Positions 6,531 through 63,683 of a stretch of DNA of 64,000 bases are shown here, piece by piece. Source of the DNA: Benincasa hispida. Lineage: Eukaryota > Streptophyta > Magnoliopsida > Cucurbitales > Cucurbitaceae. Numbering within the stretch: position 1 is the stretch's first letter; every line of letters starts with the position of its first letter. The stretch covers positions 44,340,394 to 44,404,393 of the forward strand of contig NC_052353.1 in the NCBI RefSeq assembly GCF_009727055.1. Direction: 5' to 3'. Under the pieces are notes generated by a model. That model saw only the letters and a list, made by a program, of their open reading frames with translations, was not told the origin of the DNA and made no database searches. The position numbers and the translations under genes are program-made.

Positions 6531-6703
6531 ACTTAAAACATGATCCATCCGTATTTCTCTACATACATGTTTAGTTTATCGGTTTGTGATTAATGTAACA
6601 AAAATTGTAATAAAATATCATATATTTTATTATAAACAATGAGTTTATACATAACATTTACGACCTATAGGACACTATGAGATTTAAGGCATCAAACCGA
6701 AAA
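6531..6703 (-). mobile_element. Fragment of an older LTR, minus strand
   Basis: Read on the minus strand, a purine-rich tract (AAGTGGGATAT) is followed by GGTTTGATGCCTTAAATCTC, the same opening words as the LTRs at 35943 and 61668. It is cut at 6531 by the neighbouring LTR, which implies nesting. Confidence 0.5.
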
Positions 6704-7268
6704 ATATCCCACTTGACCTAAAGCTAGTAAGGTGTACAATATAGTCAAAATAAAAAGTACACAAATAATAAACTAGGGCATAAACATGTGCCGAGTAGAA
6801 AATCTCCTACTTGGCCTAGTCTAGACGTGGCCTATCTAATAGACCCATACATTGTAGGTGACCCTCAAACTCCTTAGTCGTGAGGGCCTTTGTAAACGAA
6901 TTGGTAACGTTGTGCTTTGAAGCTATATGCGTGACGATTACATCTCCTCGATGCACAATATTTCATGTGAGATGATACTTCCGCTCTATATGCTTCTCGC
7001 ACTTGTCACACCTAGGCTTTCGAGAATTAGCCATAACACCACTATTATCACAATAAAGTGTGATGGGCTTCGACATATCTAGAATGACTTCCATATCAGT
7101 CAAGAACTTCCTGAGCCATACAGCTTCCTTAGCAGCTTCACAAGCCGCTACACATTCAGACTCCATGGTGGAGTGAGCGATGCACCCTTGCTTGGTGCTT
7201 CCCTAGACTACAGCTCGTCTGTTAAGAGTGAACACTGATCTTGATTATGGATTTCCTAGAATCCTTAT
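6704..7268 (-). pseudogene. Ty1/copia RNase H remnant
   Basis: On the minus strand the region encodes the end of a copia polyprotein: SVFTLNRRAV, KQGCIAHSTMESECVAACEA, AKEAVWLRKFLTDME and ITLYCDNSGVMANSR, followed after a stop by NIVHRGDVIVTHIASKHNV. The STMESE (usually STMEAEY) and DNSGA blocks are hallmarks of copia RNase H. Several stops interrupt it. It is followed directly by its LTR start near 6703, and its upstream part is cut by the LTR at 7269-9121. Confidence 0.75.
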
Positions 7269-9121: not shown

Positions 9122-9743
9122 AGTCTGATTACCAATATAAAATTAATAAAAATTTCATACGAACAAAGTATATCAACAGTTAATTTAAATGATCATTTTT
9201 TATAGATCAACTAATTGCCGATTGAGTTTAAGGACCATTTAAAATTGTTGATACAAAAAACTTTATACTATGAGGGGAAATAGTAGGAGTCCCTTGTAAA
9301 ATAAAGAAAATTGAACATCGACGTTGGTGTCAAGATACACATATTATGATGCTCAAGTCGGTCTTGAGTTTATGAATAAATTGATAGAAGAAAAGAATAT
9401 AGAATTTTTTAGCATATCTATGATGAATGAGTTTCACCGTTTATATAGATTAGTATAGCACAACTGACATTTCAAGGTGTAATATGACATTTAATGGAAG
9501 AATTCATAATTAATAAGCACTTAAACTACACTTAATTTGAGTTTTAAACATGCTACTCATGAGGTTTTCATAAGAGGGTTTGAACAAGACAATACCTTTG
9601 TAGTTCTCTTCAAAATTTTAGTAGAATTTCTACAAGTTTGAGCTAGATTCTTTAGATAGACCACCAACAAGATCTTCTCAACTATGCTCAAGAAGGAATG
9701 TGTGGTGGAAACACTCTAATCAAGCTGAATTGAGGATGAACTT
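9122..9743. other. AT-rich segment without recognisable gene
   Basis: There is no coding signal on either strand. It lies on the far side of the nested solo LTR from the LTR at 11814-13433 and may be the distal part of that older LTR or its internal region. Confidence 0.3.
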
Positions 9744-9748
9744 GAGAG

Positions 9749-11808: not shown

Positions 11809-11813
11809 GAGAG

Positions 11814-13433
11814 AGGGTAGTAGGGTTTTTAGTTTTGCAGCAACTTGGATAAAAATCCTAGAGATCTATCTCAATTCCATGCATAAAGCTTCATTATATA
11901 GACTCATTTCATGTATTAGAACATGGTTGCATGTAAGGCAGCTTCTACATGGAATTGGTTGAAGAACTCATGGTGGAATTTGATGATAAAACACCATGAA
12001 AGATGTTATTGGATTTTTCCAATTTTTGGAAAAAAATCCACTAACTCAAATTAATTTCAATGAAATTAATTTTTCTTTTAAATAAAACTATTTTATTTAA
12101 AATTTAGTTTTATAAAATGAATTCAAAATTAATTAATTCAAATAAAACTGATTTAATTAATTTAATATCTTAATATTAAATTAATAAATCATAAATTCCA
12201 CCAATATGATTCAAATTTATATAATCAATATTTAAATCATAATTTAAATATTAATTGATTCTCCAATCTCGTTTTAATTTCAACTAAATTAAACGTTTTA
12301 ATTGCATCATATACGATCGATTGAAAACCCTAAAACCTAATTTGAACATTTCAAATTGATAACCCTAAATTCAAAATTCATCCAATCAATACATTTATTA
12401 TTCCAATTTATGAGCTAGTAGAGGGACCTATTGGACCTACAGATCATGAGCTCCAACAATTTGTAATCAATTGGCTAAACTCTTTAAATCGAATTAATTA
12501 CTTTTCATTAACCATCAAGACACACAATTATAGCTCGATAGTTGCACTCTCTTCATTGTAGATCATAATCAGTAAGTTGATTCTTCTCATGTCGTTCGTA
12601 TTTACAACTGGGTCAAAATTACCGCTTTACCCCTATAAATACATCATGTCCCTTAAGGTTCCACTGAGCCTTTAATGAATAACTGATTCATAATACCACT
12701 TATGAATCATGTCCCTCTTTATCATGAGAGGGCGGAGCCCTGATTGTTCAAGACTAGGATTTAGCATTTAAGAGAACAACTTATCTGTTAACCATAAAAT
12801 GGGTAGGATTGAATCCATCTCGCAAGGCTATGTTCCCAGTTATCTATCTGGTCTTATCCCCAAAATGGAAGGCTTATTGAGCAGTGCTTTTGGACTACTC
12901 TCACCCATGTAGATGAAAGGACAATCCTGAATAAACAGGAGTTCATACCTAGCTCAGGGTTAAGATCGAGTTATCCTAGGTTACTTTAGTATGAAATAGC
13001 CATTTTTAACAGTAAACGATTGTTATAAAGAAAAGTGACTATTTTGTGGTTCAGTCTTTATGCAAACGCATTGCGTAGGATGTCTCCACTTACATGTCTC
13101 TACATGAATGATCTATGGATCACATCATTTGTATTACCTATACAAAATGGGCCGCATCCAATAGTGTTACCAGAACGAGATACCCACTTTTATCCATATA
13201 TTTATAGACCATTTAAGCTATATATACTATTAACTTGATCCTGTTTACGTCACTAGATAGAGTTAAAGTATTCATACTATAGCAATGGATATGATTATTG
13301 GATTTTCATAATAGAATGCAATATCAACAACTTTATCGAATAAGATTCTTAATAATATTTTATTGATAAATAGAATGTTTAACACAAAATTTACGAATTG
13401 CGAGTTCTAGGACATTCCTAACAACATTTTAGT
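11814..13433 (-). mobile_element. Older LTR, minus strand, host of the nested solo LTR
   Basis: The right edge ..ATTCCTAACA at 13433 is the complement of TGTTAGGAATGTCCTAGAAC. The same start, with slight changes, occurs on the plus strand at 40659. The left part is interrupted by the GAGAG-flanked LTR and its far end was not located. There is no coding sequence. Confidence 0.55.
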
Positions 13434-13820: not shown

Positions 13821-13980
13821 CACTACAAGAATTTTGGGCTTTAATGTCGGTTGGAAAAAGTGAAACTGGATGTATAATGTCGATTTTTTTTTTTTTAAAA
13901 AAAAAAGCGGATCTTTAATGTCGGTTTAAAACCAACATTGTAGGTACCAACAATGTCAATTTAAAACCGACATTAAAGAT
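13821..13980. repeat. CACTA left terminal and subterminal repeats
   Basis: The terminal CACTACAAGAA is followed by four copies of the (T)TTAATGTCGGTT word in both orientations, including the pair around 13917-13975 that would fold back. It is interrupted by a T12A10 stretch at about 13885-13906. Confidence 0.6.
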
Positions 13981-14660
13981 CATCTTTTTTTTAAAAAAAA
14001 AAAAAAAACCAAAAACCCATTCCCCCCGATTTTTTTTTCCATTTCTCGCTTCCCTCCCACTCCCTCCCTCCCCCCCCAATTTTCTTTTTCCTTTCATTCC
14101 CAGACTTCCCTATCTATCCCTTTTTCTAAACCTTATTTTCCCCATCAGCCACCTCCTCCCTCCCATTACCGAAACATACACCTCGCCCCGCCGCTCGCCA
14201 TTCCTGCTCGAACACCATCTCATCGACCCTCTTTTCTTTCTTAGTTTCTCTTCTAAACCCTTTCCATTCGTCCGTCGATCGTGGGTGAAGAGGATTTCGT
14301 GGTGTATATCTGACCTCTGTGTCGGTTTTTTTTGTTTGTGCAACCCCACACGCTGCACCCAATCGCCTGCGTCTCATCAATCACCCGGATCTGTTTGTGC
14401 GCCACCAGGTCCGTTCTTGACCCAGATCTACTTCGCGTCTCATCAGTCGCCCGCGTTTCATCAGTCGCCTAGATCTACTATGCGCCGCCACACCCATATC
14501 GCCCATGTCTCCTTCGTTCGTTTTGCGTGTCTCTACCGTCACCAGGTCTGTTCTTTGCCAGCTGCCGCCAAGCCATGTCTGCACGCCACCAGGTTCAAGT
14601 AGATTGCATTGTATTTTTCTCTTAATTCTTGGTAAAAAAAAAAAAAAAAAATTATGGATT
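13981..14660. other. C-rich segment inside the CACTA element
   Basis: Unlike its AT-rich surroundings this part is rich in C and holds imperfect repeats of CTCATCAGTCGCCCG-type words (about 14370-14475), ending in an A run at 14634-14650. Overlapping short frames on both strands have biased composition and no motif. It may be another captured piece, for example the 5' region of a gene, but nothing identifies it. Confidence 0.3.
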
Positions 14661-20847: not shown

Positions 20848-21585
20848 ATGGAAACTACCAGATATGAAATTGAGAAGTTCGATGGTAAGACAGACTTTGA
20901 ACTATGAACAGAGAAGATTAAAGTAGCCTTGGGACAATAGAAGGCACTACTGGCCATTATGAACCCTGCAAAGTACCCTGAAACACTTACTAAGGCAGAG
21001 AAAGAGCAAATTGAGGTAAACGCGTATGGAACCATTGTTCTAAATGTCACAGACAATGTTTTGAGGAAGATTGTAGACCAGCCTACTACCTATGCCCTAT
21101 GGAACAAACAGAATGAAATATATCTCAACAAAGACCTGCCCAACAAATCTTTCTTGTGGGAAAGATTCTTCACCTACAAGATGGATGCAACAAAGTCCCT
21201 CACAGATAATCTGAATGAGTTCAAGAGCTTGTCTTATGAATTCAGATCAATAGAAGATAATATTGGGGAAGAGAATGAGGCGTTGATATTATTAAATTCT
21301 CTATCAGAATCTTCCAAAGATGTCAAGACAGCCATGAAGTACGATAGAGAAAGAAAATTACCATAGAAGCAATCATATCAGCTATGAGAGTTAGAAAACT
21401 TAAGTTGTAAATGAGTAAGAATGATCAACAAAGAGGTGAAGGCTTATTTTCAAGGGGAAGAATAAGAACAGGGGAAATAGAATGAAGGAGATAAGTCGAA
21501 GATAAAGTGCCATTTTTATCATAAAATGGGGCACATGAAAAAAAACTGCTATGTCTTGAAGAGGAAACTGAACCAACAGAACAAG
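20848..21585 (+). pseudogene. Copia gag (capsid) with zinc knuckle, disrupted
   Basis: Gag packages the element RNA into cytoplasmic particles. From ATG 20848 the frame reads METTRYEIEKFDGKTDFEL, the usual copia gag N-terminus, with in-frame stops at 20905-20907 (a W position) and 20938-20940 (after Q). It then stays open from 20959 to a stop at 21364. The CCHC knuckle near 21510-21555 reads CHFYHKMGHMKKNC, so its second cysteine is tyrosine. Frame is lost between 21367 and about 21500. Confidence 0.8.
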
Positions 21586-21666
21586 GGTGGTAAACAGACC
21601 GAGGCTGCTGTAGAGGAGAATTCCCTTATCTATTCAGATGCATTGGCTGCTACTGAAAAAGGTGGA

Positions 21667-21970
21667 GACCTGAATACTATGGAGACTCAAGATTGGATGT
21701 TAGATTCTGGCTGCTCAGTCCATATGACACCATCTAAGGGATAGTTTTGCACCTACAAGAAGTAGGATGGTCGGCTGATCTATATGGGAAATAGTAACAC
21801 TTGTAGAGCTATTGGAATAGCGTCTGTGTCCTTGAAAATGCAGAATAGTTCAGTAAAATTGATTAGGAACGTGAGGCATGTTTCTACTTTGAAGAGAAAT
21901 CTCCTATCCTTGGGATGTTTAATGCCATTGGTTGTGAGTATAGGGGTGTGGGAGGCACCTTTAAAATAAT
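21667..21970 (+). pseudogene. Copia aspartic protease, disrupted
   Basis: The protease would cut the polyprotein. WMLDSGCSVHMTP near 21693-21731 carries the D-S-G active-site triplet. A TAG follows at about 21742. The frame resumes with MGNSNTCRAIGIASVSLKM and IRNVRHVSTLKRNLLSLG, the typical copia protease C-terminal half. Confidence 0.8.
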
Positions 21971-22074
21971 TAAGGACTCTAAAATAGTTTTGGTGGAAAC
22001 TAAGGTAAATGGTTTATATGTCATCAAAGATGTGAAAATGGCACACTCAACCTTGTTGGCAACTGATGAATAAC

Positions 22075-23009
22075 CCGCAAAAGATAAGTTGCGGCATAAA
22101 AGGCTTTCTCATATCAGTGTGAGACGGTTACAAGTGCTCTGTAAACAAGGGATTCTTCCAAGGGGTGTTGAAGACAACCTAAAATTCTATGAACATTGCA
22201 TATTAGGCAAAGCAACAAGACAAGGGTTCCCAAAAGGACAACACACTTCAAAGGAGATCCTTGAATATGTGCATTCAGACTTGTGGGGGCCAGCTCACTC
22301 TTCATCTCTAACTGGAACAAGGTACTTTCTTTCATTTATAGATGATTACTCAAGGAAGATTTGGGTTTACTTTTTAAAATCCAAAGATGAAGTATTTAAT
22401 AGATTCAAAGAATGGAAGACCTTGATTGAAAAGCATACCTATAAACAAATTAAACATTTGAGAACTGATAATGGTTTAGAGTTATGTGGAGAGGAGTTCA
22501 ACTTGTTTTGCAGGGAGCATGACATAGTAAGGCATAGAACAGTGAGGTACACACCTCAACAAAATGGAGTAGCTGAAAGATTGAATAGAACAATGCTGGA
22601 AAAAGTTAGATGTCAGTTGTCCAATGCCTTATTACCTAAAAAATATTGGACTAAAGCTATCTTCTACACTATATACACTCTTAATAGATGCTCACATCAA
22701 TCCATAGAGCTAAAAACTCTTGAAGAGAGGTGGATAAAGCAGCCACCTAAGCTGGAACACTTGAAAGAGTTTAGATGTACATGCTATGTGCATCAAATCC
22801 AAGGGAAGTTGAAACCTAGGGTTGTAAAATGCATGTTTTTAGGCTTTACACCAGGACTAAAGGGTTATAGGCTGTGGCATTCAGTTGAAAAGAGGTGTGT
22901 AAATAGTAGATATGTGGTTTTCAGAGAAAATGAGATGTTTATGATGTCTGAACAACCATCTACTTCAATGACAGAGACAAGTAGCACAAGATTTGAGGTG
23001 AAGCCTTAA
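22075..23009 (+). pseudogene. Copia integrase
   Basis: Integrase inserts the cDNA into chromosomal DNA. The 306-codon open frame from 22089 holds the pre-integrase zinc finger as HKRLSHIS..YEHC (first cysteine changed to tyrosine) and a full catalytic core: D64 in VHSDLWGP, D127 in LRTDNG and E163 in NGVAERLNRT, giving D-62-D-35-E spacing. It is in a different frame from the protease, so a frameshift lies between 21969 and 22089. The core is otherwise well kept. Confidence 0.9.
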
Positions 23010-24261
23010 AATGATCATGGAGCTTCGACTTCCTATCATAATCTAGAGTTAGAAGGTGATAATGTTGCTGAAACCAGTGAACATATGTCAAGTGAACAAG
23101 ATGAGACACATGGAGACTTACACAATTATTCATTAGCAAGAGATAGACCTAAAAGAACTACTGTGCCACCCGTTAGATACCAATAGTATGATTCTGCTAG
23201 TGTAGAATTAAGTGCTGCTATTTCTTTGAGTAATAATGAACCTACCAGCTTTGAAGAAGCAACAAACAACCCATATGCTAGACAGTGGATTGAGGCAATG
23301 AATGATGAAATGAAGTCCCTCAACCAAAATGACACTTGGAGACTAATACCTTTGCCTAAAGAGGACAAACCTATCTCATGCAAATGGATTTACAAATTTA
23401 AAGAACAGATTCCCGGTGTGCAAAAGACTAGGTTCATGGCTAGGTTGGTTGTTAAGGGGTTTATTCAAAAGAGGTATTGACTACACTGAGGTGTTTTCTC
23501 GAGTAGTGAAGCATACATCCATTAAGCTACTCCTTTCCTTAGTTGTACAAAATGACTTGGAGCAAGACCATTTAGATGTAAAGACAACCTTTCTACATGG
23601 GCTGTTGAATGAGACCTTTTACATGAGGAAACCTCAAGGTTATGTGAAAAAAGGAGAAGAAAACTTGGTGTGTTTGTTGAACAAGTCTATACATGGCCTC
23701 AAGCAGGCACTGAGATATTGGTATGAGAGGTTTGATGAAGTGATCTCTAAGATGGGGTTCAAAAGAAGCTCATACGATTGGTGTGTCTATACAAACTCTA
23801 ATAGCTTCAAGGAACCGGCCTATCTACTTCTTTATGTAGATGACATGCTTCTTGTCAGGAATTCCAAAGAAGAATTGAGGCAAATGAAAATGCTTCATAA
23901 GAGAGAGTTTGATATGAAAGATCTAGGGGAATCAAGAAGGATTCTAAGCATTCAGATTGAAAGAGATAGAAAACAGGGCAGATTGCAAGTTGCTCAATAT
24001 GAATATTGTTCAAAGATAATTCAGAGGTTCAAAATGGAGAGTGCTAAGCCAATTCTCACTCCTCTTGCATCTCACTTCAAGCTTTCAGCCAAAAATAGTC
24101 CAAAAAGCATAGATGAAGAGAATTTAAACCATATGAAGGTTGTTCCTTTTTCCCAAACAGTGGGATCACTGATGTACCTTATGATTTCTACCAGACCAGA
24201 CATGTCCTATGCAACAAGTATGGTCAATAGGTACATGGCAAACCTTGTTAAAAGACATTAG
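23010..24261 (+). pseudogene. Copia reverse transcriptase, frameshifted
   Basis: The RT start WIEAMNDEMKSLNQNDTWRL and CKWIYKFKEQ lies in one frame (23226-23480). After a +1 shift near 23465 it continues as IDYTEVFSRVVKHTSIKLLL, LDVKTTFLHGLLNETFYM, QGYVKKGEE, KSIHGLKQALRYWYERFDE, and the catalytic YVDDM at about 23836-23850, to a TAG at 24259. In the family the first catalytic aspartate is in LDVKTAFLHG; here A is T. The stretch 23010-23225 is the variable linker after integrase, with stops. Confidence 0.88.
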
Positions 24262-24790
24262 AAAGTTGTCAAGTGGATATTGAGGTATCTATGTTCATCC
24301 AAGGATGCAAGAGTCTTATATAGGCAAAATGAGCCATCTAATGATGAAGTTTATGGTTATGTAGATGCAGATTATGCAGGAGATTTAGACAGAAGACGTT
24401 CTCTATTAGGCTATATTTTCCTATGGGGGAACAATTTGATAAGCTGGAAAGCAAGTTTGCAGCCTGTTGTGGCCCTTTCACAATAGAGGCTGAGTTCATC
24501 GCACTATATGAGGCTATGAAGGAAGGTTTGTGGCTGAAAGGTTTACTAAACGATTTTGGCACAACACAAAGAAAGGTCAGAATCACCAGAGCACAATCTA
24601 CCTATCTAAAAACCAATAGTTTCATAATAGAACCAAGCACATTGATATTAAATATCATTTCTCAGATAGGAGGTCGAGAAAGAGGAAGTTGAGATAGTGA
24701 AGATTCATACCTCAGATAGCTGATATGCTAACCAAAATTGTTCCATTAAACAAGCTTGGCAGATGCTTGGATCTTCTCGAGTTCGAGTTA
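24262..24790 (+). pseudogene. Copia RNase H, frameshifted
   Basis: YGYVDADYAGDLDRRRSLLG and NLISWKASLQPVVALSQ are in one frame. After a TAG and a frameshift, EAEFIALYEAMKEGLWLKGL follows, then HIDIKYHF at about 24641 and an ADMLTKIVPL-like end near 24719. This is the complete copia RNase H signature with at least one frameshift and stops. It ends about 80 bases before the 3' LTR. Confidence 0.85.
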
Positions 24791-35942: not shown

Positions 35943-38089
35943 TGTTGGGGTTGATGCCTTAAATCTCGTAGGGTCCTGTAGTTTGTAAACACCTGTATGA
36001 ACAAACACTTGTGATGTAAGAATATGAGATATTTTCTTCACTGTTGTCTATAAAATATGAGATATTTTATTTGCATTAACCATAAACCAATAAACTGAGA
36101 TCCCANNNNNNNNNNNNNNNNNNNNNNNNNNNNNNNNNNNNNNNNNNNNNNNNNNNNNNNNNNNNNNNNNNNNNNNNNNNNNNNNNNNNNNNNNNNNNNN
36201 NNNNNNNNNNNNNNNNNNNNNNNNNNNNNNNNNNNNNNNNNNNNNNNNNNNNNNNNNNNNNNNNNNNNNNNNNNNNNNNNNNNNNNNNNNNNNNNNNNNN
36301 NNNNNNNNNNNNNNNNNNNNNNNNNNNNNNNNNNNNNNNNNNNNNNNNNNNNNNNNNNNNNNNNNNNNNNNNNNNNNNNNNNNNNNNNNNNNNNNNNNNN
36401 NNNNNNNNNNNNNNNNNNNNNNNNNNNNNNNNNNNNNNNNNNNNNNNNNNNNNNNNNNNNNNNNNNNNNNNNNNNNNNNNNNNNNNNNNNNNNNNNNNNN
36501 NNNNNNNNNNNNNNNNNNNNNNNNNNNNNNNNNNNNNNNNNNNNNNNNNNNNNNNNNNNNNNNNNNNNNNNNNNNNNNNNNNNNNNNNNNNNNNNNNNNN
36601 NNNNNNNNNNNNNNNNNNNNNNNNNNNNNNNNNNNNNNNNNNNNNNNNNNNNNNNNNNNNNNNNNNNNNNNNNNNNNNNNNNNNNNNNNNNNNNNNNNNN
36701 NNNNNNNNNNNNNNNNNNNNNNNNNNNNNNNNNNNNNNNNNNNNNNNNNNNNNNNNNNNNNNNNNNNNNNNNNNNNNNNNNNNNNNNNNNNNNNNNNNNN
36801 NNNNNNNNNNNNNNNNNNNNNNNNNNNNNNNNNNNNNNNNNNNNNNNNNNNNNNNNNNNNNNNNNNNNNNNNNNNNNNNNNNNNNNNNNNNNNNNNNNNN
36901 NNNNNNNNNNNNNNNNNNNNNNNNNNNNNNNNNNNNNNNNNNNNGGTTATCGTTGTAACTTAAGCATTGTATGTGACATATACACAGTGGATCAAATGTC
37001 TTAAGTGATAACCTAAATGGTCTATAAAATATGGATTGAAAGGAGAAAATCTATCCTAGTGACCACTACGGATACGACTTCGATTTGTTAGATTTACAAG
37101 TATTGTAAATTGCTACAAATGGTCCTGATCCTTGATCATTCATGTGGAGACATAACGATGGGTGTTCCATACAAAGAAGTTTGTAAATAAGATTGGACCA
37201 CGAAAATTTTTAGTTTTCGTTATATAACATCGTTCATGACAAAGACTTTCATTTCCACAGGATGACAATTAAAGTAACATGACCTCAATCCTTAGGAATT
37301 GGAACTTTTGCCATGAGGACGGTCTTTGAATTTGCATGGGTCGAGTGATTAGATTGGCCAACTCAAACCTACAACTTTTAGGAATTGGGTACTGATTTGG
37401 GAGAGCTGGGAACTTAGCTATAAATCAAGAGGAATTACACCTAATCGTTTACTCACGAGAGACTATATGATAGCCCTCTAGCGAGTGACTAAATGATTGT
37501 GTAAAGTAAGAGACTAAATGATTGTGTAAACGATCTAGTGATTTACTAAACGATCGTGTAAATGATCTAGCGAGAGACTAAACGATTGGCTAGACGATTC
37601 TCATGGGAACGAGATTTACTAAACGATCAAGTATTCTCAATCTATGATATAGACATAACCTTCTCCCACTTGCTTAATCGTGTAGTTCGATCATTTTCTT
37701 CCTCCATCCCTCTACCAAATTCACACAGAGCCCACACCTCTGAGATTCTCACTCCGAGAATAACAAGGTTGTCGAGTGGTAGGGTCGAAGAGTTCTTGTT
37801 CGAGGAGTAGACTATTCGTGATCTAAACGACAGTGAGAGATTAGCTAGATGATTATGATTATAACAAGATGTTACTGTTCAATTGCTCACGAGAGTAAGA
37901 GATTTACCAAAGAAGAGTTCTTCAAAGGTATGTCTCTCTTTTCTTTTGTATTTGATTAAGAAAGCATGCTGTACTTTTGTTTAAATTGCATAAGTATTCT
38001 GTATGTTTGTGAATGCCTTTATTCTTTCACAATAGACTTGGAAAGATCTTGCTTCTGCTCACTGGTTCTCTTGAATAAAAGTTCCTTCA
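35943..38089 (+). mobile_element. 5' LTR of a Ty1/copia element (contains the N gap)
   Basis: It starts TGTTGGGGTTGATGCC and ends GTTCCTTCA, followed by a primer-binding site. Positions 36106-36944 are N. An ACGATCGTGTAAACGATC cluster lies at 37445-37690, followed by the TTCTCACTCCGAGAATAAC block and a U5 resembling that of the LTR at 51755-53359, though diverged. Its own 3' LTR was not found in the window. Confidence 0.7.
36106..36944. other. Assembly gap (839 N)
   Basis: An unbroken run of N inside the LTR; its true length is unknown. Confidence 1.
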
Positions 38090-42891: not shown

Positions 42892-44980
42892 TATTAGAAT
42901 TTATGCCCTAAAGCCTCATAATTAATTAGTTATTTGATACAATAATTGATTGTTTATATATATGCAATAATTAGTTATTCATTATAGAAAAAATCTAAGG
43001 TTATTTCATAAGACTTGAAAAATATGTATTGCACATACAATTGGATCATATTTCAAGTAATAACCTACAGGGTCTATAGTATATGGATTAAGTTTCGGTG
43101 CCTTGGAACACTATAGATACAATCCACTTTGTAATTGTTACAGATATTAAAAGTGTTACAAATGATTTGATCTAAATCGTTCATGTAAAGACATGCGAGT
43201 GGGGTATCCTATACAAAGAGTTTGCATAAGACCTGATCATGAAATACTTAATCTCTCTTTGTAATGTCATTAATTAAAGAGATATATGTTTCATAGGATA
43301 ATCATGTAACACGATCTCAATCCTGAGTGAGTTATGAACTCCTTGGTCGGAGGATTTTTTTCACCTAAATGGGAACTAAATAATTTAAGTCGTTTCCACT
43401 AATTATGCAGTAGTGGTAGTAACGAGTTGAACACAGGGAACCTTTGAATTTCTCTGTCAATCAATTTCCAACCTGAGGTAACCGAGAGGAGGGGGTTTGA
43501 AAGTTTGTTTATTCGATTGTGCAAGAAATTAAACTGCGAGAAAAATAAAGAAAGTGTAAATTCAATAATTAAATGCTCTATATGTTACAACCCAAGCTAG
43601 GCATTCCCATATAGAATCTCAACTTTTTACTTTCTGCATTTATTTTATACAATTAAATTTCATTTGCAATGAAAAAATTTCAAACCCCTCCCTCCCAATC
43701 GACTACAATCGGGCTGTAGACTGTTTGATTGAAAAATTCAAAGGCTTCCTGTGTTCTACTAGTGCTATCATTACTACATTAATTTTGGTAGAAATAGTTT
43801 AAATTATTTGGTATGAATTTAAGCAACGAAATCAATCCAACTAGAGGGATATAGTTTATGGTAAGACCATAAATAGATTGTTCATTAGAAGGATTAGTGG
43901 TACTTAAGAAGTGAAAAGTAATTACAAGGGTAAATCAGTGATTTGACCCAACTGTAATTACAAACTACTCATGAAAGATCGACTTATTGTAAAGATTGAA
44001 TCCATGGATGTATAAACATTCTACAACGTAAATAGTGTAGTTGTAAGTGTTTAGTGGAATGACCCATAATTAGTGAATGTTCATTAACATAATAATAAAG
44101 TTTAATTAATTAATGTTGAATATTGGAGTTTCTAATTTGTAGGTCTATTAGGCCCCTTGCTACCTCACAATGGGTAAACAAGGACCAAGAACTTTGAAAG
44201 AATTTGAATTGTTTAAATTAAATAAGGGAATAATATTAATTTTATATGATACAATTAACATAATGTATATAGATACATTATAATATAAAGTTAATCGTGA
44301 ATAAGATTAAAAAATTAAACTTTGTAATAAAAATAAGATTTAATATGTTTGAATATGATTCAAATATTAAAATAACATGAATTAGATTCATCTTAAAAGT
44401 ATAGGTTAAAATTTAATATGAATGAGATTCCTATTAAAATTATAGGCTATGAGAAAGATAAAATTTGAATAAAAATCAAATATATTTAATTAAATATTAG
44501 ATATTTAATTTTATCAATCAATTAAATAATTATTTGATTGATTAATTTAATTTAATTAAATCATTTTATTTAATTAAATAAAAAGAAAATGTGAAATAGA
44601 TGGTCATGTATCCCACTTCACGTATTCTTGAAGGGGTTGATTATTTGGAGAGATGGGATTTGAGACTCATCCCCAACATTTTCATTCTATTGCTCTCTCT
44701 CTCAATTTTCACATAAAGTAGTTCTTTGTGAAATAGATTTCTAAGACCAAAATCTTTTTCTGTTCTTTTAAAATAAGGTTCCCACAAATTGGTCCTTACT
44801 AAGAAAATAGCGGAGAAGACCCAATGGTGACGTCTTTGTTCTTTTAGGAGTTTAGTAAGAGAAGACAAATTCTTGAAATTCGAGAAGACCAGGAAAAGAA
44901 TTGAAGAACAGTTCAAAGGCAATGTTTTCTTCTTCCCTAGTTTTTTCTAATTTTTTTCAAATTAATTCTCTATCTTATTC
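42892..44980 (+). mobile_element. LTR-like unit, plus strand, containing a fold-back insert
   Basis: TTAGAATTTATGCCCTAAAG, TCAAGTAATAACCTACAGGG, TTCATGTAAAGACATGCGAG and TGGTACTTAAGAAGTGAAAA follow the landmark order of the copia LTRs in this window. The edges are approximate, and a fold-back element interrupts it at 43373-43822. No coding sequence. Confidence 0.5.
43373..43822. repeat. Fold-back element, inverted arms of about 130 bp
   Basis: The left arm (43373-43510: ACTAAATAATTTAAG..GAACACAGGGAACCTTTGAATTT..GAGGGGGTTTGAAAG) is the imperfect complement of the right arm (43674-43822: TTTCAAACCCCTCCC..AAATTCAAAGGCTTCCTGTGTTC..TTAAATTATTTGGT). The loop is AT-rich. It could be a MITE or an inverted retroelement fragment. 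Confidence 0.6.
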
Positions 44981-45666
44981 TTATTATTTAAATTGAGCGA
45001 ATGTATCTATAGTACTCAAAGTGACCTTAACTCACTCTAGTGGACGACATCCATATACTCATGTATTTTTATACTAAAACTTGATCTATACAACTCTCAA
45101 AACTATAAATCTTTGGTTATATATACAAACATGTTCCAGGAGACTAACACAACCCTTAAGACATAAAATTAAAGTTACTCATTGTTTGTTTTGTAACCAC
45201 CTCAAGACTCAAATTTCAACTCCAATAGTTGTCTATCATTATAGTAAACTTTTACATTTTAATTTATTTAAAAAAATAAAAAAAAATATGACCACACATG
45301 TGAAGTCAAAGATAAATGGACCATCTTTCAACTACAAACAAAATATTCAAGGACCACACTTATAGGAATATAGTCCCTATAAGAAAGGGAAGATTCTGAA
45401 GATAAAAAAAAAAAATTACTTTCAATTGGAGGGAAGAATAATTGAGGACGACAAAGATTATAAGCATTCTTCATATTCTATTGCTTTAAATTTCTCCAAT
45501 AGAATGGCTAAATGTTGCGATGTCTATGGAGCTTAAACAAACATTCCGTTTGAAAACAAAAAATAGTGAACCTATGACGAGATGTACCATTTTGAGGATG
45601 CACCTTGAGAATCTCACATCATAAAAATTAAGGAACCTCATTGTTATGGGAAAGTGAATGTTAACC
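44981..45666. other. No gene recognised
   Basis: AT-rich sequence with short frames lacking motifs on both strands. Confidence 0.4.
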
Positions 45667-46152
45667 TTATTTGGAAAGTATGAAGACTGACCCGATGAAA
45701 TCAAATTTATATTTGGCTAATCATAGAGACCAGCCCATAGACTGAACCATTAAAGCTAAAGAAATCGATTCTTATCATAAGATCAATAAGAACCATAAAG
45801 GCTAACTCTTAGGGTCAGCGATGGAAGTTAAGAAGGACAATTCCATAGACTTCATGAAGGTCGTCCCTCATAGGGTTGGCCATGAGAGAAAAATAATGCC
45901 TAAGTAACGTTATTTGGCAAGTATGAAAACCGACTTGTTGAAATCATATATTTATTTGGCTAAGAATAGAGACCGACCCATAGACTCAAGCATTAAAGTT
46001 AAAGAAACCAATTCTTATCATAAGATCAACAAAAACCATAAAGGCCAACTCTTAGGGTCAGCCATGGAAGTTAAGAAAGTCGATTGCATAGACTTTATGA
46101 AGGTAATCCCTCATAGGGCTGGCCACGAGAGAAAAATAAATGCCGAAGTATG
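45667..46152 (+). repeat. Tandem duplication, period 243 bp, in copia internal sequence
   Basis: TTATTTGG(A/C)AAGTATGAA.AC.GAC..GGGTCAGC.ATGGAAGTTAAGAA..CCTCATAGGG.TGGCCA.GAGAG runs from 45667 and again from 45910, differing at about one base in ten. The second copy is open (46-codon blocks within 45914-46213); the first is not. Confidence 0.75.
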
Positions 46153-46199: not shown

Positions 46200-48994
46200 C
46201 TACGTGCTCTTAGGTCCATTTGCAATGACCAAATTATGTCAGTAATGGATCCTATATTCGGGTGCTACCAACCATGTAAGTTCCTCTTACCAAGGATTCA
46301 GTTCCTAGTAAACGTTGCTACAAGCAGAGATGACTCTTTGAGTCGGTACTGATGAGGTTGTTTCAGTTGTTGCTGTAGGTAGGCTAAAGTTATTTTTGGA
46401 CAAGAAATGTTATCTGTTACTGGATAATGTTTTCATAGTCCCTCATATCAAGAGGAACTTAATCTCAGTTTCTTGTCTCATTGAACAAGGTTATACCGTC
46501 TCCTTTTCTGAGAATAAACTGTTTATTTTTAAGAATGCAATGAAGATTGATTTTGGTTCAATAGAAAGTAACTTGTATGTACTAAGGTCATTAGTCATAA
46601 AAGCCTTGTTTAACACTAAAATGTTCCGTATGGCAACAACAGCTAAAAGACCAAAGGTTTCTCCTAAGGAAAACACCCATCTTTGGCATCTAAGGTTAGG
46701 TCACATCAACCTCAATAGGATTGAGCAGTTGGTAAAAAGTGGACTTCTAAAGAGTTTAGAAGAAAACTCCTTTCCGGTGTGTGAATCATGCCTCGAGGGC
46801 AAGATGACCAAACAACTTTTTCCTGGAAAGGGTTATAGAGCCAAGGAAGCCTTGAAGCTTGTGCATTCTGACCTTTGTGATCCGATGAATGTTAGGGCTC
46901 GAGGTGGGCATGCAATATTTCATATCTTTCATAAATGATTATTCAAGGTACAGGTATCTCAACCTAATGCAACGTAAGTCTTAAGCCCTTGATCGTGATG
47001 GAGTATAAGGCTAAAGTTAAAAACTTTTTAGCTAAAAAGATAAAAACACTACAATTTGATCGTGATGGAGAGTATAAGGATCTCCAATTCCAGAACTATA
47101 TGATAGAACATGGGATTCAATTCCAACTCTCGACCCTAGTTACACCTAAGAAGAATGGTGTATCGGAAAGGAAAAAAAGAACCTTGTTGGACATGGTTCT
47201 GTCTATTATGTGTTATGCTCATCTTCTAGACTCGTTTTGGGTTTTGTAATGGAAACTACATGCTATATTCTGAACAACGTTCCCTTGAAATGTGTTTCTA
47301 AAACACTTTTGAGTTGGGAAGAGGCCATAAAGGTAGTTTACGCCACCTTAAGATTTGGGAGTGTTTAGCACATGTGCTTGTTGCTAACCTAATGAAGTTG
47401 GAACCGCGTTCGAAAGTTTTCCTTTTTGTAGGCTACCCCAAGGAAATGAGAGGTGGATACTTCTATGATCTGAGTGAGAACAAAGTGTTTATTTCAACAA
47501 ATACTATCTTCTTGGAAGAATACCCACATGAGAGATCATAAGCCACAGAGTAATCTCGTTTTATGTGAGATTGCTAGTGAAATTAAGACTACTGAGGGTT
47601 CAACAAGAGTTGTTGAACAGGTCGACAATCAACAAGAGTTGTTAAGGTCGGTGCATTTCCTCAACAAGCTCAAGAATTGAGACTGCCTCAACGTACTGAG
47701 AGAGTTATGAACCACCGGATCGCTACATGCATTTTACTGAAGCCTAGAACGTCATTTCTAATGATGGGGTCGAGGATCCATTGTCTTTTAAAAAAGAAAT
47801 GGAGGATGTTGGCAAAGATGAATGGGTTAAGGCCATGAATCAGGAAATGGAGTCTATGTACTTCAATATCGTCTAGGAGCTTGTGGATCCACCTTATGGG
47901 GAAAGATCTATTAGGTGTAAGTGGATCTATAAGCGAAAGAGAGGTGTAGATGGAAAGGTGCAAGGCTAGAGTTGTGGCAAAGGGTTATACCCAAGTCGAG
48001 GGAGTTGACTATGAGGAAACTTTCTCACCTGTTGTCATGCTGAAGTCTATCAGGATATTCCTATCCATAGCCACAGTTTATGATTATGAGATATGGCAAA
48101 TGGATGTCAAGATTGCCTTTCTTAATGGTAATCTTGAGGAGACCATCTATGTGATTCAGACAGAGGGGTTCGTAGATTTAGATCAAGAGCAAAGAGCTTG
48201 TAAGCTTCATAGGTCCATTTATGTGCTGAAACAAGCGTCTCGATCATGGAACATTTGATTTAACACTGCAGTCAAGTCGTTTGGCTTTGATCAGAATGTT
48301 GATGAGCCTTGTGTCTACAAGAAAATCATTAACAGCTCAGTAGCTTTCTTGGTACTATACATGGATGATATTCTATTCATTAGGAATGATTTAGGGTATC
48401 TGACTGACATTAATAAATTGTTAGCTGCCTAATTCCAAATGAAAGATTTGGGTAAGGCACAGTATGTTCTAGGGATCCAAATCATTCGAGATCGTAAGAA
48501 TAAGAGGTTAGCCTTGTCTCAGGCATCGTACATTGATCAAATGTTGATCAGGTACACGATGCAGGATTCCAAGAGGGGGTTTGTTACCTTTCAGGCATGG
48601 AATCATTTTGTCTAAGGATCAATGTCCTAAGACACCTCGAGAAGTTGAGGAGATGAGATGGATTTCCTATGTTTCAGCCTTTGGAAGATTAATGAATGCA
48701 ATGTTGTGTACCAGCCCCGAAATTTGCTATGTAGTAGGTATTGTCAGTCGGTATCAGTCCAATCCAGGATTTGATCACTGAACGATGGTCAAGACAATCC
48801 TCAAGTATCTTTGAAGAATGAGGGATTACATGCTCGTGTATTAAGATAAGAATCTGATCCTTACAGGATACACAGACTCTGACTTTTAGACCGATAGAGA
48901 TTCTCATAAATCAACATCAGGGTCAGTGTTCACTCTGAATGGAGGGGCTGTAGTGTGGTGAAACATTAAGCAAGGATGCATCGCAGACTCCACT
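46200..48994 (+). pseudogene. Copia pol: protease end, integrase, RT, start of RNase H
   Basis: 46396: protease C-terminus NVFIVPHIKRNLISVSCLIE, then the pre-integrase finger HLRLGHINLNRIEQL..CESCLEGK (HHCC intact) and LVHSDLCDP. 46989-47249: FDRDGEYKDL and NGVSERKKRT. 47314-47541: integrase tail WECLAHV..FVGYPKEMRGGYFYD. 47770-48260: RT start (EWVKAMNQEMESM) then [20 protein letters not shown] and [18 protein letters not shown]. 48355-48375: YMDD catalytic box. 48880-48994: SGSVFTLNGGAVVW and KQGCIADSTME. At least six stops or frameshifts. The reading breaks inside RNase H at about 48998 and resumes at 51297. Confidence 0.85.
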
Positions 48995-48997
48995 ATG

Positions 48998-51296
48998 GAA
49001 GTTGATAGAAGAAAATTAGAAGTCAATTTTTACTCGACAACCAAAATCCCATGGACGCAGTATGCGATGCATGTTCCTAAGATATGCGTTGATAGTCATG
49101 CGTCGATGGTCATGTGTTGGAATGATAATGCGTTAACGAATATATGCGATGACCATGCGTCCTGTCACAAGTTTTCTTGCGCTCACGCCAAGTACTGTCT
49201 CTTATACACATCTAGATGTGTATAAGAGACAGGCCTAGAATGTCATGCGTCGATGGTCATGTGTTGGAATGATAATGCGTTAACGAATATATGCGATGAC
49301 CATGTGCCCTGCCACAAGTTTTCTTACGCCAGAACCAAGTATAATTCCAACGCAAATTTCTCGGGTAATCCGAGGTCAAACATAGGGACTTGTAGCTATA
49401 TGTTTGCAATGATGTGCATGCGGCAGTTTAAATAAAAGAATGGAGGGGATGTTGCTAAGTTAATCCTACTCCTACTCCTATCTCATAGACAACACAATGA
49501 GAATATGCATAAGAGGTAGAGATACAACAACACTTAACATGAAATAAATGTTCGGGAGAAAAGATAAAATGCAGAGATGTTTCCATTGCAACCCTTAAGA
49601 GTGAATGTGAGGGCAACCCTAGTCAACACAAGCCAATGAGATTATGCTACACTCATGCTCAACAAATCATTTTCCAATGCAAATGCGGTGCTCCTAAGTC
49701 TAGGACGCATGTGTTGAATGCAAAAGTGTCCATAGAGCTTATTCCTAAGTCTCTACTCTTTTACTATGCGATGATGCAAAATGCACACAACGTTGCGGTG
49801 ACCGCACTCTATCGTATCCTATCTTTAGAATGCATATGAAGGGTTAATAACAAACAGTGCCTATTCCTAAGCTCCTATCTCTTGTGTTATACGTTCTAAT
49901 CTGACTCTCCCGAGCCGAAATTCTGACTGACCTTCCAACGCCTAGATCCTGCCCTTAGACTACCCTCCCGAGTATCCCTAATGGATGATCGAAGCATACA
50001 TACTACAAGATAATCACATGAACTTGGTTGACGCAAGATTGTTACTATCTCTAGTGAACAATGCATACATTGCTTAATGTGTCCAACCACTTATCCTCCC
50101 GGACAGTTGATTGTTATTGACTTTACTCATAGACAAGCAATGTGTTAGCCTATAGACAGACGTTGCAGCAGCTTCACACTAAGCAAATAAGGTTACTCAC
50201 ACACTTGCGCAATGCACACCTCTCGGTGAGTTGCTACATGTTTCATATTCCTAATCAACATGACTAAGTATGCAATACCCAATCACTCCCACTAAGTGTT
50301 GCAATGAAAGTAAAGATGCTAAGCAAAGAAGATGGAGATGGAGTCGAAGGAACTGAGAAATGCATTGAAAGCAGATTGTATTAATTCTTAATTCCAAAAT
50401 GTCATACAATACAATATGAGAAAAGAAAGGAAAAGGAAATGACCGGCTGGAAGCAAAGTCTTGCTTCCAGCGGATGTGCGTCAAGGCTGTCAGTGGCGCC
50501 ATGGATGGGCGAAGGAGCTGACTCTCTTGAGATCTAGCTCTGGTCGAAGGCTTCGGTCGTCACTCGGAATGGATGAAGGAGGTGAAGAACTCTTAAGCGT
50601 CTTCTCACGCATTTTATCTGGATTGCGGGGAAAATCTCAAGTTTGAGGGATAATCTCTGGATCATTTGAATTTCAGCTCATCGACTTCTATTTATAGAGC
50701 TTGGGTCGCTGACAACATTAATTAGACTGCTCTGAGTCTGACGTTCGACGCGTTAATCCTTTTCTAAACCTCTGCCACTAATGGCGTGGTAGGTGAAATG
50801 TCAGCATTAGCTTTGGATTTTCTCGAGGTAGATGTGTTCATGCATTCATTCCACCTACCTTGCGTTGATCCCATTAGTTTGCGTTATTGTACGGCCGCAA
50901 TCATTCAATGAGCGCATTCGCTTAATACCACAACTCTACATGATGACCACAATCGTTTGATGAATGCAATTCCTATGCGATGAACGCATGCGGCTGATCA
51001 CCGCAACACCCATGCGTTGATCTAATGCGTTTGTCTTATGATGGAGAATTTCTCCGTATGCGGTCGTCTATGTGGTAGTCTGATTTTCGCGTTTGCATTC
51101 ATTTCCAGCATTAGCTACAAAAATAAAACATTGAACGCATAATTAACACAAAATAACGTGTTAGCTGAAATTCATCGTGCTGATTGACGCAAAATCTTTT
51201 TCTCATGAATTTCTAACATGATTGTCGCATATTCTACCTAACAACCTTCATAATTCTAAGTAAAAGAACTAAGATGGTATACATTTCTGCATGTCA
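48998..51296 (-). mobile_element. 2.3-kb insertion inside RNase H (LTR-like, probably minus strand)
   Basis: RNase H stops after the STME residues and resumes with NYVATCEATKEV at about 51300, so this block is an insert. It contains TATTTATAG (50689-50697, TATA on the minus strand) next to a cluster of ATGCGTTGATC/GCGATGAACGCATGCGG words (50740-51070), the layout seen in other LTRs here. It also holds diverged 100-bp direct repeats at 49095-49194 and 49242-49342 separated by a library adapter. Ends and class are uncertain; no coding domain is seen. Confidence 0.5.
49195..49232. other. Nextera mate-pair junction adapter (assembly contaminant)
   Basis: The 38 bases are CTGTCTCTTATACACATCT followed at once by AGATGTGTATAAGAGACAG. 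Each half is the 19-bp Tn5 mosaic end used in Nextera libraries, and the head-to-head pair is the circularisation junction of mate-pair libraries. It is not plant DNA. The frame 48995-49225 that crosses it is spurious. Confidence 0.97.
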
Positions 51297-51660
51297 TCAG
51301 AAACCAATTACGTAGCCACTTGTGAAGCAACTAAGGAGGTTGCTTGGCTAACAAAATTCCTTACAGATTTGGAAGTTGTTCTAAATATGAATTTGCCTAT
51401 CACTCTTTATCGTGATAACAGTGGGGCTGTGGCAAATTTGAAGGAACCTCGGAGTCATCTTTAAGGCAAGTATATAGAATAGAAATACCACTTGATCAGG
51501 GAGATTGTGCATCGCGGTGATGTGATAGTCACGAAGATCGCGTCGAAGCACAATGTTGCTAATCCCTTTACAAAGGCTCTCATGGCTAAAGTGTTCAACG
51601 ATCACCTGAAGGGTCTGGTCTATGGAACATGCGACATCTTGTCTAGGGCAAGTGGGAGAT
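51297..51660 (+). pseudogene. Copia RNase H, 3' part
   Basis: TNYVATCEATKEVAWLTKFL, LPITLYRDNSGAVANLKEP, IVHRGDVIVTKIASKHNVAN and PFTKALMAKVFNDHL complete the RNase H broken at 48998, with stops. A purine-rich AATTGGGAGAT tract (51744-51754) precedes the 3' LTR. Confidence 0.85.
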
Positions 51661-51754
51661 GATACTGGGATATGCCCTAGTTTATGGTATATTGTACATG
51701 TTTGTATATTGTATTGTACATTAGTCTCTCGAGACATTAAAACAATTGGGAGAT

Positions 51755-53359
51755 TGTTGAGATTGGTGTCCTAATTCTCCAGAGTCTCGTAGTTTGTAAT
51801 ATATACACATTGTTTATGAATAAAATAAGAGTTATTTCATTCTGGCTTTTACTCATATCCAATAAACAAAGCTCCATAGTTATCGTATGTAAACTTAAGC
51901 ATGTATATGAGATATACAAGTGGATCATGCCTTAAGTGATAACCTAAATAGGTTTGTAGTATAAGGAGTAAGGAGGGCTTCCCGATCCTGATGACATTAT
52001 GGATATGACCTGCTTTGTAGAGATTTGTCAATGTTGTTCATTAGAGGGATCAGTGGTACTAAAGAGTTAGATGTAACTATAGGGGCATAACGATTATTGA
52101 TCAAGTTGTACTTACGAGCGATCTGTGAAAGGTTATCGCATTGTTGATTGGTTAAGATGGACACATAATATATTTGTAGTAAGGAGAGTTCAGTTGTTGG
52201 TTTTTAGTGGAGTGTCTGGCAGTTAATGGATGGTGCATCCTGTGACTAAAAGGTTTAGTCAGTTATTCACGTACGGTTGGATCTTCGAGCTATAGGTCCA
52301 TAAAGTCCCTTGGTAGCTCAATGGAATCAAGTTGAGAATCAGTTCTTGGTGTTGATTTGAAATGTTCAAATTGACAAGAAGAAAATTTCATTATATATGA
52401 TCTGATCGGTGTGATATATGAGATGCATCTAGTGGAGGATTAATGTAAATGAGATTTACATTAAGTACCATGGAATAGAAAAAGAGTTATGGTTTATATG
52501 TTTCATGAGATGAAATATTAAAACTATAGGTTATAAATATAGTATGGTAAGTTGGTTATCATTTATATTTATAATACTATTAATTATTTGATAATTATCT
52601 TTTTTTTTCTCTAATAACCAATTGAGTAGGAGGTTATTGGTGGTTTCATGATAACTGTGAGATAAAAGGAAAAAAGTTTTCCTAAATTTGGTTAGTTGTT
52701 GAATTGAGATTTCCATTTTAGGAAACTTCTCACGGAAAGGTTGTCAAGTAAATGTGATTTACTAAACGACATCTTGGAGAGACTAGACGATATGGAGTGT
52801 TTCTATACGATAGACACTCAGATGGCCGATGAGCTAAATGATCGCATAGCTTTTGTTAAACGATTGGGCATCGTCTATACGATAGACTTTGCCATCTCCC
52901 ACTTGCTCAATCGTTTACACAATTTTTCTTCCTCTGATCTCCTCCTCTAACCAAGTCCACACAAAGCTCACACTTCTAGATTCTCACACCGAGAATACCA
53001 AAGTAACCTTTGTGGTGGTGTCATACTCAACTCGACACTGTCGAGGTTATTCGGAGGCCGTTCGTTGAGTTCACGGTGTTCGTGTGGTGGTTGTCGATTG
53101 TTCGTGATCTTGGAGATTGCAGTGTTCGAGTTCTTTGTTGTTCGTGTGTTGTCGTGTTGCTGTGAACAAGCGTTCGTGATCAAAAGCATCTTCAAAGGTA
53201 TGTGAATTCTTCCCTTGATCTTTAGAAAAGCATGTTGTAATTTCGATTTTGTTCATAGCCTGTTGTTTTCGTTTGTGTACTTGTAAATGTTGATATAGGA
53301 TTGAAATTTGGAACAATCATTCCGCTGCTCATGGAAATCCTCAAGTCTAATTTCCTTCA
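51755..53359 (+). mobile_element. 3' LTR of the plus-strand copia element
   Basis: TGTTGAGATTGGTGTCC..AATTTCCTTCA, 1,605 bp, directly after the purine tract. Features are a TATAAATATAG box near 52533, the ACGATCGT-word cluster at 52750-52930, the TTCTCACACCGAGAATACC block and U5. It differs from the LTR at 35943, so the two do not pair as one recent insertion. Minus-strand frames inside (51381-52031, 52968-53316) are not genes. Confidence 0.75.
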
Positions 53360-53932: not shown

Positions 53933-55790
53933 TGTTGGGTTTTATGTCCTAAAACTTGTGGTTTGTAAACAATAAACTTATTTCGTTATCAATAAAGATG
54001 TTATTGAGATTTATTAAATATAGTTGTTATTGAATATATGAATTGCAGCGAAATAAAAGTAGATCAAGTTCGAGTAGATAACCAAAATGGTATATGGTTA
54101 AGGATGGGTACCTTATCTTAAGGACACTATCAGATGCGACCCACTTTGTATTTAATACAAACGATGTGATCCTGAATCGTTCATGTGGAGACATATGAGT
54201 GGGGCGTCCTGTTCAAGATTGACTATTACAAAGCGATGACTTAGGTAACTTGTCCTTAATCCTAAACTAACTATGAACTTCTATTCATTCATAATTATCC
54301 TTAGATTTTCATGGTTGAGGATTAGCTCAACATCATTGGCTTAATAGGCCTCCCATTTTAGCGGTAAGACCGGGTAGATAGCTAGGGACATAGGGTACAA
54401 GATGAAATTCACTCATACCCACTTTTAGGGATACTAGAAAGTTTGTTCCCTTAAATGCTGAATCCGAGTCTTGAACAAGGGGCTCCACCCTCTCATTGGT
54501 TAAGGAGGGATTTGGTTTGGTGATTGGATCACAAACAAATTATTCATTAGAGTATCAATGGGACTTAAGGAGCAAAATGTAATCTCGGGGGTAAAATAGC
54601 TTTTGACATAGCCGTTATTACGAACAACCTATGAAGGGTTGACTTACTAATTATGGTTATCTCGAGTGGACATAAATATATCTACAGTGAAGGGAGTGCA
54701 ACTATTAGACTTTAGTGGAGTGACCCAGTGAATGTTGGTTAATTGGATTAAAGAATTTAGCCGGTTCATTTCGGATCCTTAGAGCCTATGATCTGTAGGT
54801 CCATAAGGTTCCCCTACTAGCTGATATAAGACTAAACCTTAGAACAGTGTGACAATCCAGTTTAAATTGTTCAATTCGATTTTTGGAGTAAAGTATTGAA
54901 TATATCCTATATATTTAACCTAATGTTTAATTATGAACTAAACATATAAAGTGAAAATTGGAGATATTTTAATAAGATTTAAATATCAGGATTATGAATA
55001 GGGATTCATACTGATTGGGATTAGTGTTGGATTTAATAATTGAATATTAAATTAAATGAATTAAATTGTTTAATTAATTATTTAATTTTAAATGAATTAT
55101 TAGAATTAATTTTGAAATTAAATAAAATTTGTCAAAATTGCAACAAAAGTCAAAATTGTTAACTAGGTCAAAATTGTAACTTAAGTCAAGATGTTGACTT
55201 TAGACTTTGATAGGTCAAAAAATCAAATAATTGACTTTGGATTTTTAGAGTCAAAGATAGAGTTTTGACCAGGTTAGTGGAAAAATCCAACATTTTTTAG
55301 TGGGAAAATCTTATTTTTGTATTGCTATGTGTCAATCTCACTTGAAGACACTAATCCCACTTTGAGTTAGTGGAATTTGAGTGTCAAATTCTTATTAAAT
55401 TAAATTTGCATGATTTAATGATTTGACCTATAAATAAAAGAGTTTTATAATGTTTAATTTTCTTGGCAAAGTGGACTTTTATGAGATTTTTTAAGAAAAA
55501 TCTCAACCTAATTCTCTCTTAGCTACTTACCCTTATCCAATCCAAAATGGTCACTCACTGGATCCCACATTCCCAGTCTATAATTGAAGAACAGTCAGGA
55601 ATACTCTCGTGATGGTCTACGAACCGTTTGTAAGGAGATTGGAGCGAATTTGGAGAAGAATTAAGATTACAAAGGTTATATATTCTCCATCCCTTTGTTT
55701 TAATTTAATTTCATGATCATTCTTTTGAATTAACATAATTAGAGTACTTTAGATCCTTTATTTCTTCTGCCGCACATGTGTTCATTTCAT
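53933..55790 (+). mobile_element. LTR inserted in the minus-strand copia element
   Basis: TGTTGGGTTTTATGTCCTAA opens an AT-rich unit of about 1.85 kb with LTR landmarks (GTTCATGTGGAGACATATGA, GTGACCCAGTGAATG, CCATAAGGTTCCCCTACTAG). It ends near CCGCACATGTGTTCATTTCATCA. It splits one minus-strand polyprotein between integrase and RT. The 5-mers at the edges are similar at best (CTGAC; TTTAC), so the duplication is unproven. Confidence 0.55.
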
Positions 55791-59600: not shown

Positions 59601-61668
59601 TAGGGGACTCGAACCATGACCTGTGAACGACCTCCTGATGCATGTGCAACACCTTCGAAGCGTAACGATGCTTTACACAAGCATTGTTACACTGCCTTTT
59701 TCCTTGTCGTAGCGTGGCCCTACACTGCATGCAATGTAGCTACGCTGGCTTTTCCCTTTCCAAATTGTAGCGTTATGTCGTATGCAACGTTGTGAGCATA
59801 GCAACGCTGATGCTAGCACAACTACGTAGGCCATTCAACCTTACAGCGTAACACACGGCATAATTACTCTAATGAAGATATAAACACAACTTCCCCACTC
59901 TGATATGTTGCACGTAAAAATGAGTGAGAAACGGGTTGAAGGGAGTTATCAAAATAACTCTTACCCCATTTTAATTTTCTAAAATTCAAATAATTGAATT
60001 TTAATTTGATATATATATATATATTAACCATTATATTAAAATATATGTTATATCACACATAAAATATAACCTATGATTTATATTATATCATATATAATAT
60101 AACTCATAATTGATTATTCTCTCATTTAACTTATAGTATTAAAATGAATCACATTCATATTAATTTTAACCTATAATTTTTATATGAATCACATTCAAAT
60201 ATTTATTTCTCTTATTAAAACTTTACGTTATAATGTATCATATACATTATCTTATGGGAAATTAAATTATATGATAAATATATATTCAGAAACCAAAGCC
60301 ACGACTTCAACTATTTTGTAATTGCAGATGTGGCAATGACATAGCAATCACATAACAATCACATAGAAATCAGATAGCAATCACATAACAATCACATAAA
60401 AATCAAATAACAATAGAATTTTAGTCGGAAGTTTTTTGACATGTTTGCAAAAAAGCAAAACCTAGGGACACACGCACAATTTTCATTTATTTTTTTTATT
60501 AAAGTTCCAATTGCCTCTTATCTTAATTATATCTTATATAATTTCTTTCTTTTAATTAATTTTAACAATTCAAATAATCCAAAATTAATTTGATGCTCAT
60601 TAATTTTTATTGAGCTAACAAATGAACTTTATGAACCTATAGAATGAAACTCCAATGATACTTGATTAATTAATCGAACTCTTTAACTAAAATAATCAAC
60701 TAAAGTAATCAACCTTCATTAACTGTTAGTCATTCCATTAAAGATCGACATCTACACTCTTCATACTATTGATATATTTATGTATCCATTGGATATAACT
60801 AATCGAATGTACGATGGCCCTTCACAAATTGATGGTAAATACAGTTGGGTCAAAATTATAGTTTTACCCTGTAGTTACATCTAACTTCATAAGTATCACT
60901 GACCTCTTTAATGAATAATTAGTTATAGTCTAACTATAATCAAACCCCTCTTGGGCCAATAGAAGGTGTGGCATCATATTGTTCAAGACCTGAAATCAGC
61001 CTGAAGTTTGCAATTTATCTACTTACCCTAATAATAGGGAAGTACTGAATTTCTTCTGGTGTAACTGTGTTCCCAGCTCCCCAATTAGAAAAATCCCAAA
61101 AATGGTAGGCATATTGAGTTGGCGAAACTAGTGACTCTTACCTATGCAGATCAATACACGGCCCTCCCTCGTAGGCAAGAGTTCACAATCCACTAAGGAT
61201 TAAGATCAAGCCATCTATGGTCATCCTATTGAAATGTAGGTTTCTTCTAGCAACATGTTCTAAAGTGAGACTATTCATTTCGCGGTCTGATATTATACAA
61301 TCTCTTTATATATGATACCTCTACTCACATGTCTTAACATGAATGATTAAGATTAGATGATTTGTAGTACTTTACAATAATTATAAAAATTACAAAGCAG
61401 ACAATGTCCGTAGTGTGATCAGGATAAGGTACCAGTGCTATCTATCTACTAAACCGTTCAGGTTATTACTTAAATATGATCCGCCTGTATGTCTCCATAT
61501 ACGTGTTTAAGTTACATCTAATGGACCTTGGATTTTAGTTTATTGGTTTTGAGTTAATGAAACTAAAAGTCAAATAAAATACAACTTATTTTGTTAGATA
61601 AATAATGTGTTTTTATAATATAATTTACAAATTACAAGACCTTAAGATTTAGGGCATCAACCTCAACA
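59601..61668 (-). mobile_element. Copia LTR with adjoining palindromic cluster, minus strand
   Basis: The right edge ..AACCTCAACA at 61668 is the complement of TGTTGAGGTTGATGCCC. The LTR landmarks (TATACAATCTCTTTATATATG, TCCATTGGATATAACTAATC, AAAGATCGACATCTACACTC) run down to about 59900. At 59650-59855 a cluster of AGCGTAACGATGCT, GTAGCTACGCT, GCAACGTTG words follows. No recognisable U5 end or primer-binding site, so the LTR end is deleted. A B-box-like GGTTCGAGTCCCC lies on the minus strand near 59603-59615. Confidence 0.55.

Positions 61669-63644: not shown

Positions 63645-63678
<34 letters not shown>
63394..63678. repeat. (GA)n, purine-rich tract and (TA)n microsatellites
   Basis: (GA)9 lies at 63394-63411, a GAGATGGAGG-rich purine tract at 63480-63600, and (TA)n at about 63649-63678. 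The frames 63392-63632 are by-products of this composition. Confidence 0.85.

Positions 63679-63683
<5 letters not shown>

Follow-up and report, generated by a model that had tools for sequence, protein, structure and literature searches.

The window analysed here is a stretch of 64,000 nucleotides (64 kb) from the genome assembly of Benincasa hispida. At positions 49195-49232 it contains CTGTCTCTTATACACATCT followed directly by its reverse complement, together 38 bases that form an exact head-to-head pair of Tn5 mosaic ends. An earlier note on this DNA had described a perfect pair of 19-bp mosaic ends at this place, and the description holds, as both arms are exact and 0 bases lie between them. 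The pair, referred to below as the adapter, is enclosed by two copies of a direct repeat, and the features of the locus are the following:

49095..49194, + strand: direct repeat, left copy, ending at the adapter; 91 of 100 bases identical to the right copy
49195..49213, + strand: 19-bp Tn5 mosaic end, first half of the presumed synthetic junction adapter; exact match, the 19-mer being printed as Tn5MErev in an excerpt of PMC4248319
49214..49232, - strand: 19-bp Tn5 mosaic end, second half, inverted and abutting the first; exact match, 0 nt between the arms
49233..49241, + strand: the 9 bases between the adapter and the right repeat copy, unlike the 9 bases left of the adapter (CGCCAAGTA compared to GCCTAGAAT)
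49242..49341, + strand: direct repeat, right copy, beginning 9 bases past the adapter; 91 of 100 bases identical to the left copy

The two repeat copies do not differ at all over their first 63 bases, their 9 differences lying within the last 37. In BLAST the core of the repeat comprised 88 bases, with 95.5 % identity and 141 bits. The earlier claim of 100-bp direct repeats differing at several positions is thus correct in substance, with 91 of 100 bases identical, while the right end given for them, 49342, was one base too far (49341). Self-comparison of the window with an E-value limit of 1e-5 revealed no other copy of the 100-bp repeat, and a scan of viral contigs for the 63-base identical core gave 0 exact matches. 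In the right flank, the left repeat copy was the sole match to 49233-49700.

The window is a gapped scaffold, with a run of N at 36106-36944 (839 bases) and single Ns at 27513 and 34591, which would be consistent with a draft assembly. The flanks of the N run, 36032-36104 and 36945-37420, match the near-contiguous segments 11766-11695 and 11693-11231 of another copy of a dispersed sequence, and it is possible that the size of the gap is wrong or that the gap holds an insertion. Such dispersed related sequences, approximately 67-89 % identical in pieces and present on both strands, were seen at 4743-12981, 36032-38089, 43033-44463, 51312-53072, 54239-55124 and 60522-61668. Only 2 stop-to-stop reading frames of at least 80 amino acids are present at 4700-12000. 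Reading frames of the window match Pfam domains of copia-type retrotransposons (gag, GAG-pre-integrase, integrase core, retroviral SH3-like and RVT_2 reverse transcriptase), a content that appears consistent with plant DNA. At 20941-24261 copia-type pieces lie in separate frames, namely gag, GAG-pre-integrase, integrase, SH3-like and reverse transcriptase. Directly after the reverse-transcriptase domain starts the region 24124-24447, which we take to be RNase H, and a decayed stretch in the left flank of the adapter (48644-48958) resembles this region with 32-33 % identity in tblastx. No continuation of that element was located in the right flank. There is also a 100-base inverted similarity of 77 % between 48899-48999 and 7162-7263, i.e. 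between the decayed copia stretch and the interior of a dispersed repeat. A unit of 243 bases occurs twice in tandem at 45662-46150, with 86 % matching between the copies, just upstream of a copia GAG-pre-integrase fragment (46342-46938). The window gave no Rfam family at the gathering threshold, and ARAGORN, run with the bacterial code, predicted no tRNA.

When up to 3 mismatches were allowed, the mosaic-end 19-mer matched the whole 64-kb window twice, both times in the adapter. Nine other adapter and linker sequences (TruSeq, Nextera R1/R2 tails, 454 and lox linkers, SMRTbell, EcoP15I and SOLiD internal adapters and an ONT adapter), gave 0 exact matches on either strand of the 64-kb window. 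Since only one junction was seen within 64 kb, the window is not heavily contaminated with adapter, a point against the artefact reading given below.

The same 38-mer was found in assemblies of unrelated organisms. The collections scanned may omit records from the window's own genome; in them the exact 38-mer occurred in at least 120 stretches of prokaryote genomes, from at least 19 assemblies of bacteria belonging to several phyla (the matches listed were assigned to assemblies manually, using titles and accession prefixes), and in 7 viral-contig stretches. Cyanobacteria, Enterococcus, Streptomyces, Collinsella, Pseudomonas and metagenome bins are among the bacterial carriers. The 19 assemblies do not represent 19 independent events, because some of them share a genus or a project. 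When positions 49080-49400 were used as the query, 5 of 72,556 plasmid records matched a part of it, covering 12-14 % at query positions 110-155. The adapter occupies query positions 116-153, and four of the five records match from position 116 on with 100 % identity and share at most 2 bases beyond the adapter. As the matches are confined to positions 110-155, the plasmid records share the adapter and not the flanks, and a plasmid origin was rejected on this basis. The wide recurrence of the 38-mer in bacterial, viral-contig and plasmid sequences is as expected of a reagent. Several public bacterial assemblies contain many copies, some of them a few hundred bases apart, and Enterococcus sp. 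10A9_DIV0425 has 59 copies in the fetched stretches (among the matches listed).

The flanks of the junctions in these other assemblies were compared to those in the window. The 127 fetched loci (among the matches listed) contained 154 junctions, of which 117 had 150 bases without another junction on each side and were tested. The other 37 were dropped because they had a short flank or a second junction in the flank, which would match through the adapter itself. Of the 117 tested junctions, 25 lay between the copies of a direct duplication scoring at least 30 bits. The same was true of 12 of 1201 positions drawn at random from these loci, although such positions could still land on parts of a duplication. 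The 25 junctions derive from 9 of the 19 bacterial assemblies (among the matches listed) and one viral contig. In 18 of the 25 cases both copies lay within 2 bases of the junction. The best piece of each duplication was at least 99 % identical in 21 cases, and 93-98 % identical over 19-41 bases in the other four. As 92 of the 117 junctions had no flanking duplication, the flanking repeat is an inconstant mark of the artefact. Sliding along the window, such a direct repeat was found at 21 of 1232 positions, and four positions, in the regions 26.2-26.5 kb and 45.7-46.1 kb, reached 100 bits with 81-88 % identity. Runs of N occurred within 150 bases of 35 of the 154 junctions elsewhere, compared to 223 of 2402 random positions. 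The enrichment fits scaffold seams, although some of the N runs there represent masking.

We consider it nearly certain (probability approximately 0.98) that the 38 bases represent the junction adapter from a mate-pair library that was left in the assembly, i.e. an artefact and not biology. This reading is supported directly by the identity of the adapter, by its recurrence in unrelated assemblies and by the absence of the marks of an insertion. Two synthetic 19-bp mosaic ends would have been joined when a tagged genomic fragment was circularised, or one 38-bp ring adapter would have been ligated in. An untrimmed read through the junction probably made the join: it would have entered contig building or gap closing, and would have stitched together two stretches bearing related copies of the 100-bp repeat. 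The 38 bases would then be absent from the organism itself, and the two flanks would not necessarily be neighbours, or both be present, in the real chromosome. The earlier proposal of a chimeric read that was assembled across two copies of the repeat is plausible, and from the 9 differences it would seem that the join brought together two related copies or alleles, the flanking copies presumably deriving from different places or alleles. Sequence order at approximately 49.09-49.35 kb should not be trusted.

A genuine insertion in the sequenced line, either of a minimal Tn5-type element or of a construct with mosaic ends, would agree with the orientation of the two ends, which both face outward like the termini of a Tn5 transposon. 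Insertion of Tn5 results in a 9-bp target-site duplication. The 9-mers flanking the adapter, GCCTAGAAT on the left and CGCCAAGTA on the right, form no such duplication, and with 0 nt between the mosaic ends there is no transposon body, so that insertion of a Tn5-type transposon was rejected. In the fetched loci (among the matches listed), 151 junctions had 9 complete bases on both sides, and the two 9-mers matched in 1 of them. In addition, according to excerpts of PMC4248319, the mosaic ends were introduced in vitro in place of the weakly active natural Tn5 ends, and the DNA between the ends needs to be long enough to let them meet. That the two ends arrived by insertion is thus highly improbable, and we give equally little credence to a genuine mosaic-end scar carried by the sequenced line at this place, e.g. 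from an engineered construct. Least credible of all is a natural palindrome that equals the adapter by chance. The window does contain other self-matching palindromes, e.g. at 63647-63680 and 13884-14007, but the sequence at 49195-49232 is identical over 38 bases to a reagent printed in the available text of PMC7357533. Furthermore, the 19-mer matched shuffled versions of the window on average 0.01 times even with 3 mismatches allowed, 0 of 100 shuffles contained two matches, and no further exact piece of the mosaic end of at least 13 bases was found in the 64-kb window.

Under the preferred reading of a mate-pair artefact, the flanking repeat may itself be a product of the faulty join. The repeat would in that case naturally be single-copy here, the second copy having been added from another allele or paralogue. 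Direct duplications are frequent beside junctions elsewhere (25 of 117 compared to 12 of 1201), and hence the second copy may not exist at this place in the real chromosome. The close abutment of the duplications to the junction in 18 of the 25 cases and the lack of another copy of the 100-bp repeat in the window also point in this direction. On the other hand, the two copies differ at 9 of 100 bases, with the differences clustered at one end, unlike most of the junction duplications elsewhere, and this counts also against the artefact reading in general. The local direct repeats that the window also has at 26.2-26.5 kb and 45.7-46.1 kb indicate that natural ones occur in this genome. We regard a naturally single-copy repeat as possible, with a chance somewhat short of even. 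The 9 differences would also rule out, as the sole account, a circle of one short fragment that was read twice.

What the artefact affects is data quality alone. The 38 bases need to be masked, and the join at approximately 49.09-49.35 kb is unfit for deducing repeat, gene or retrotransposon structure, for primers and for breakpoints. The adapter persists in public assemblies, and in about one in five of the junctions tested (25 of 117, among the matches listed) it adjoins local direct duplications that might be taken for a biological feature.

The 38 bases are closest to two known reagents. The text available from PMC7357533 prints the identical 38 letters as a biotin-labelled ring adapter for circularising mate-pair fragments of approximately 4 kb. 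In that protocol the 38-mer is ligated ready-made to ultrasound-sheared DNA, in contrast to a junction arising from tagmented ends. The Nextera mate-pair junction is described in excerpts of the NextClip paper (PMC3928519) as two 19-bp adaptors that are joined upon circularisation and sought as a 38-base pair, of which 34 bases are used in the search; unprocessed reads are said there to lead to a lower scaffold N50. The window has the same arrangement, two 19-bp adaptors head to head, 38 bases and no spacer, although these excerpts give lengths and not letters. The earlier note had identified the 38 bases as exactly the Nextera junction. Identity with a published mate-pair circularisation adapter and agreement with the NextClip description bear this out, although the library need not have been made with the Nextera kit, the ready-made ring adapter being identical; judged from the window sequence, the two reagents cannot be told apart. 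The term junction adapter is used for different sequences in the portion available from PMC11575248, and the available portion of PMC6298255 describes a library protocol with nothing decisive for the adapter question. Natural Tn5/IS50 has similar 19-bp ends, of which the outside end matches both adapter arms with 3 mismatches and the inside end has no match in the window within 3 mismatches. In contrast to the natural element, no element lies between the two ends in the window, and both are exact copies of the engineered mosaic end.
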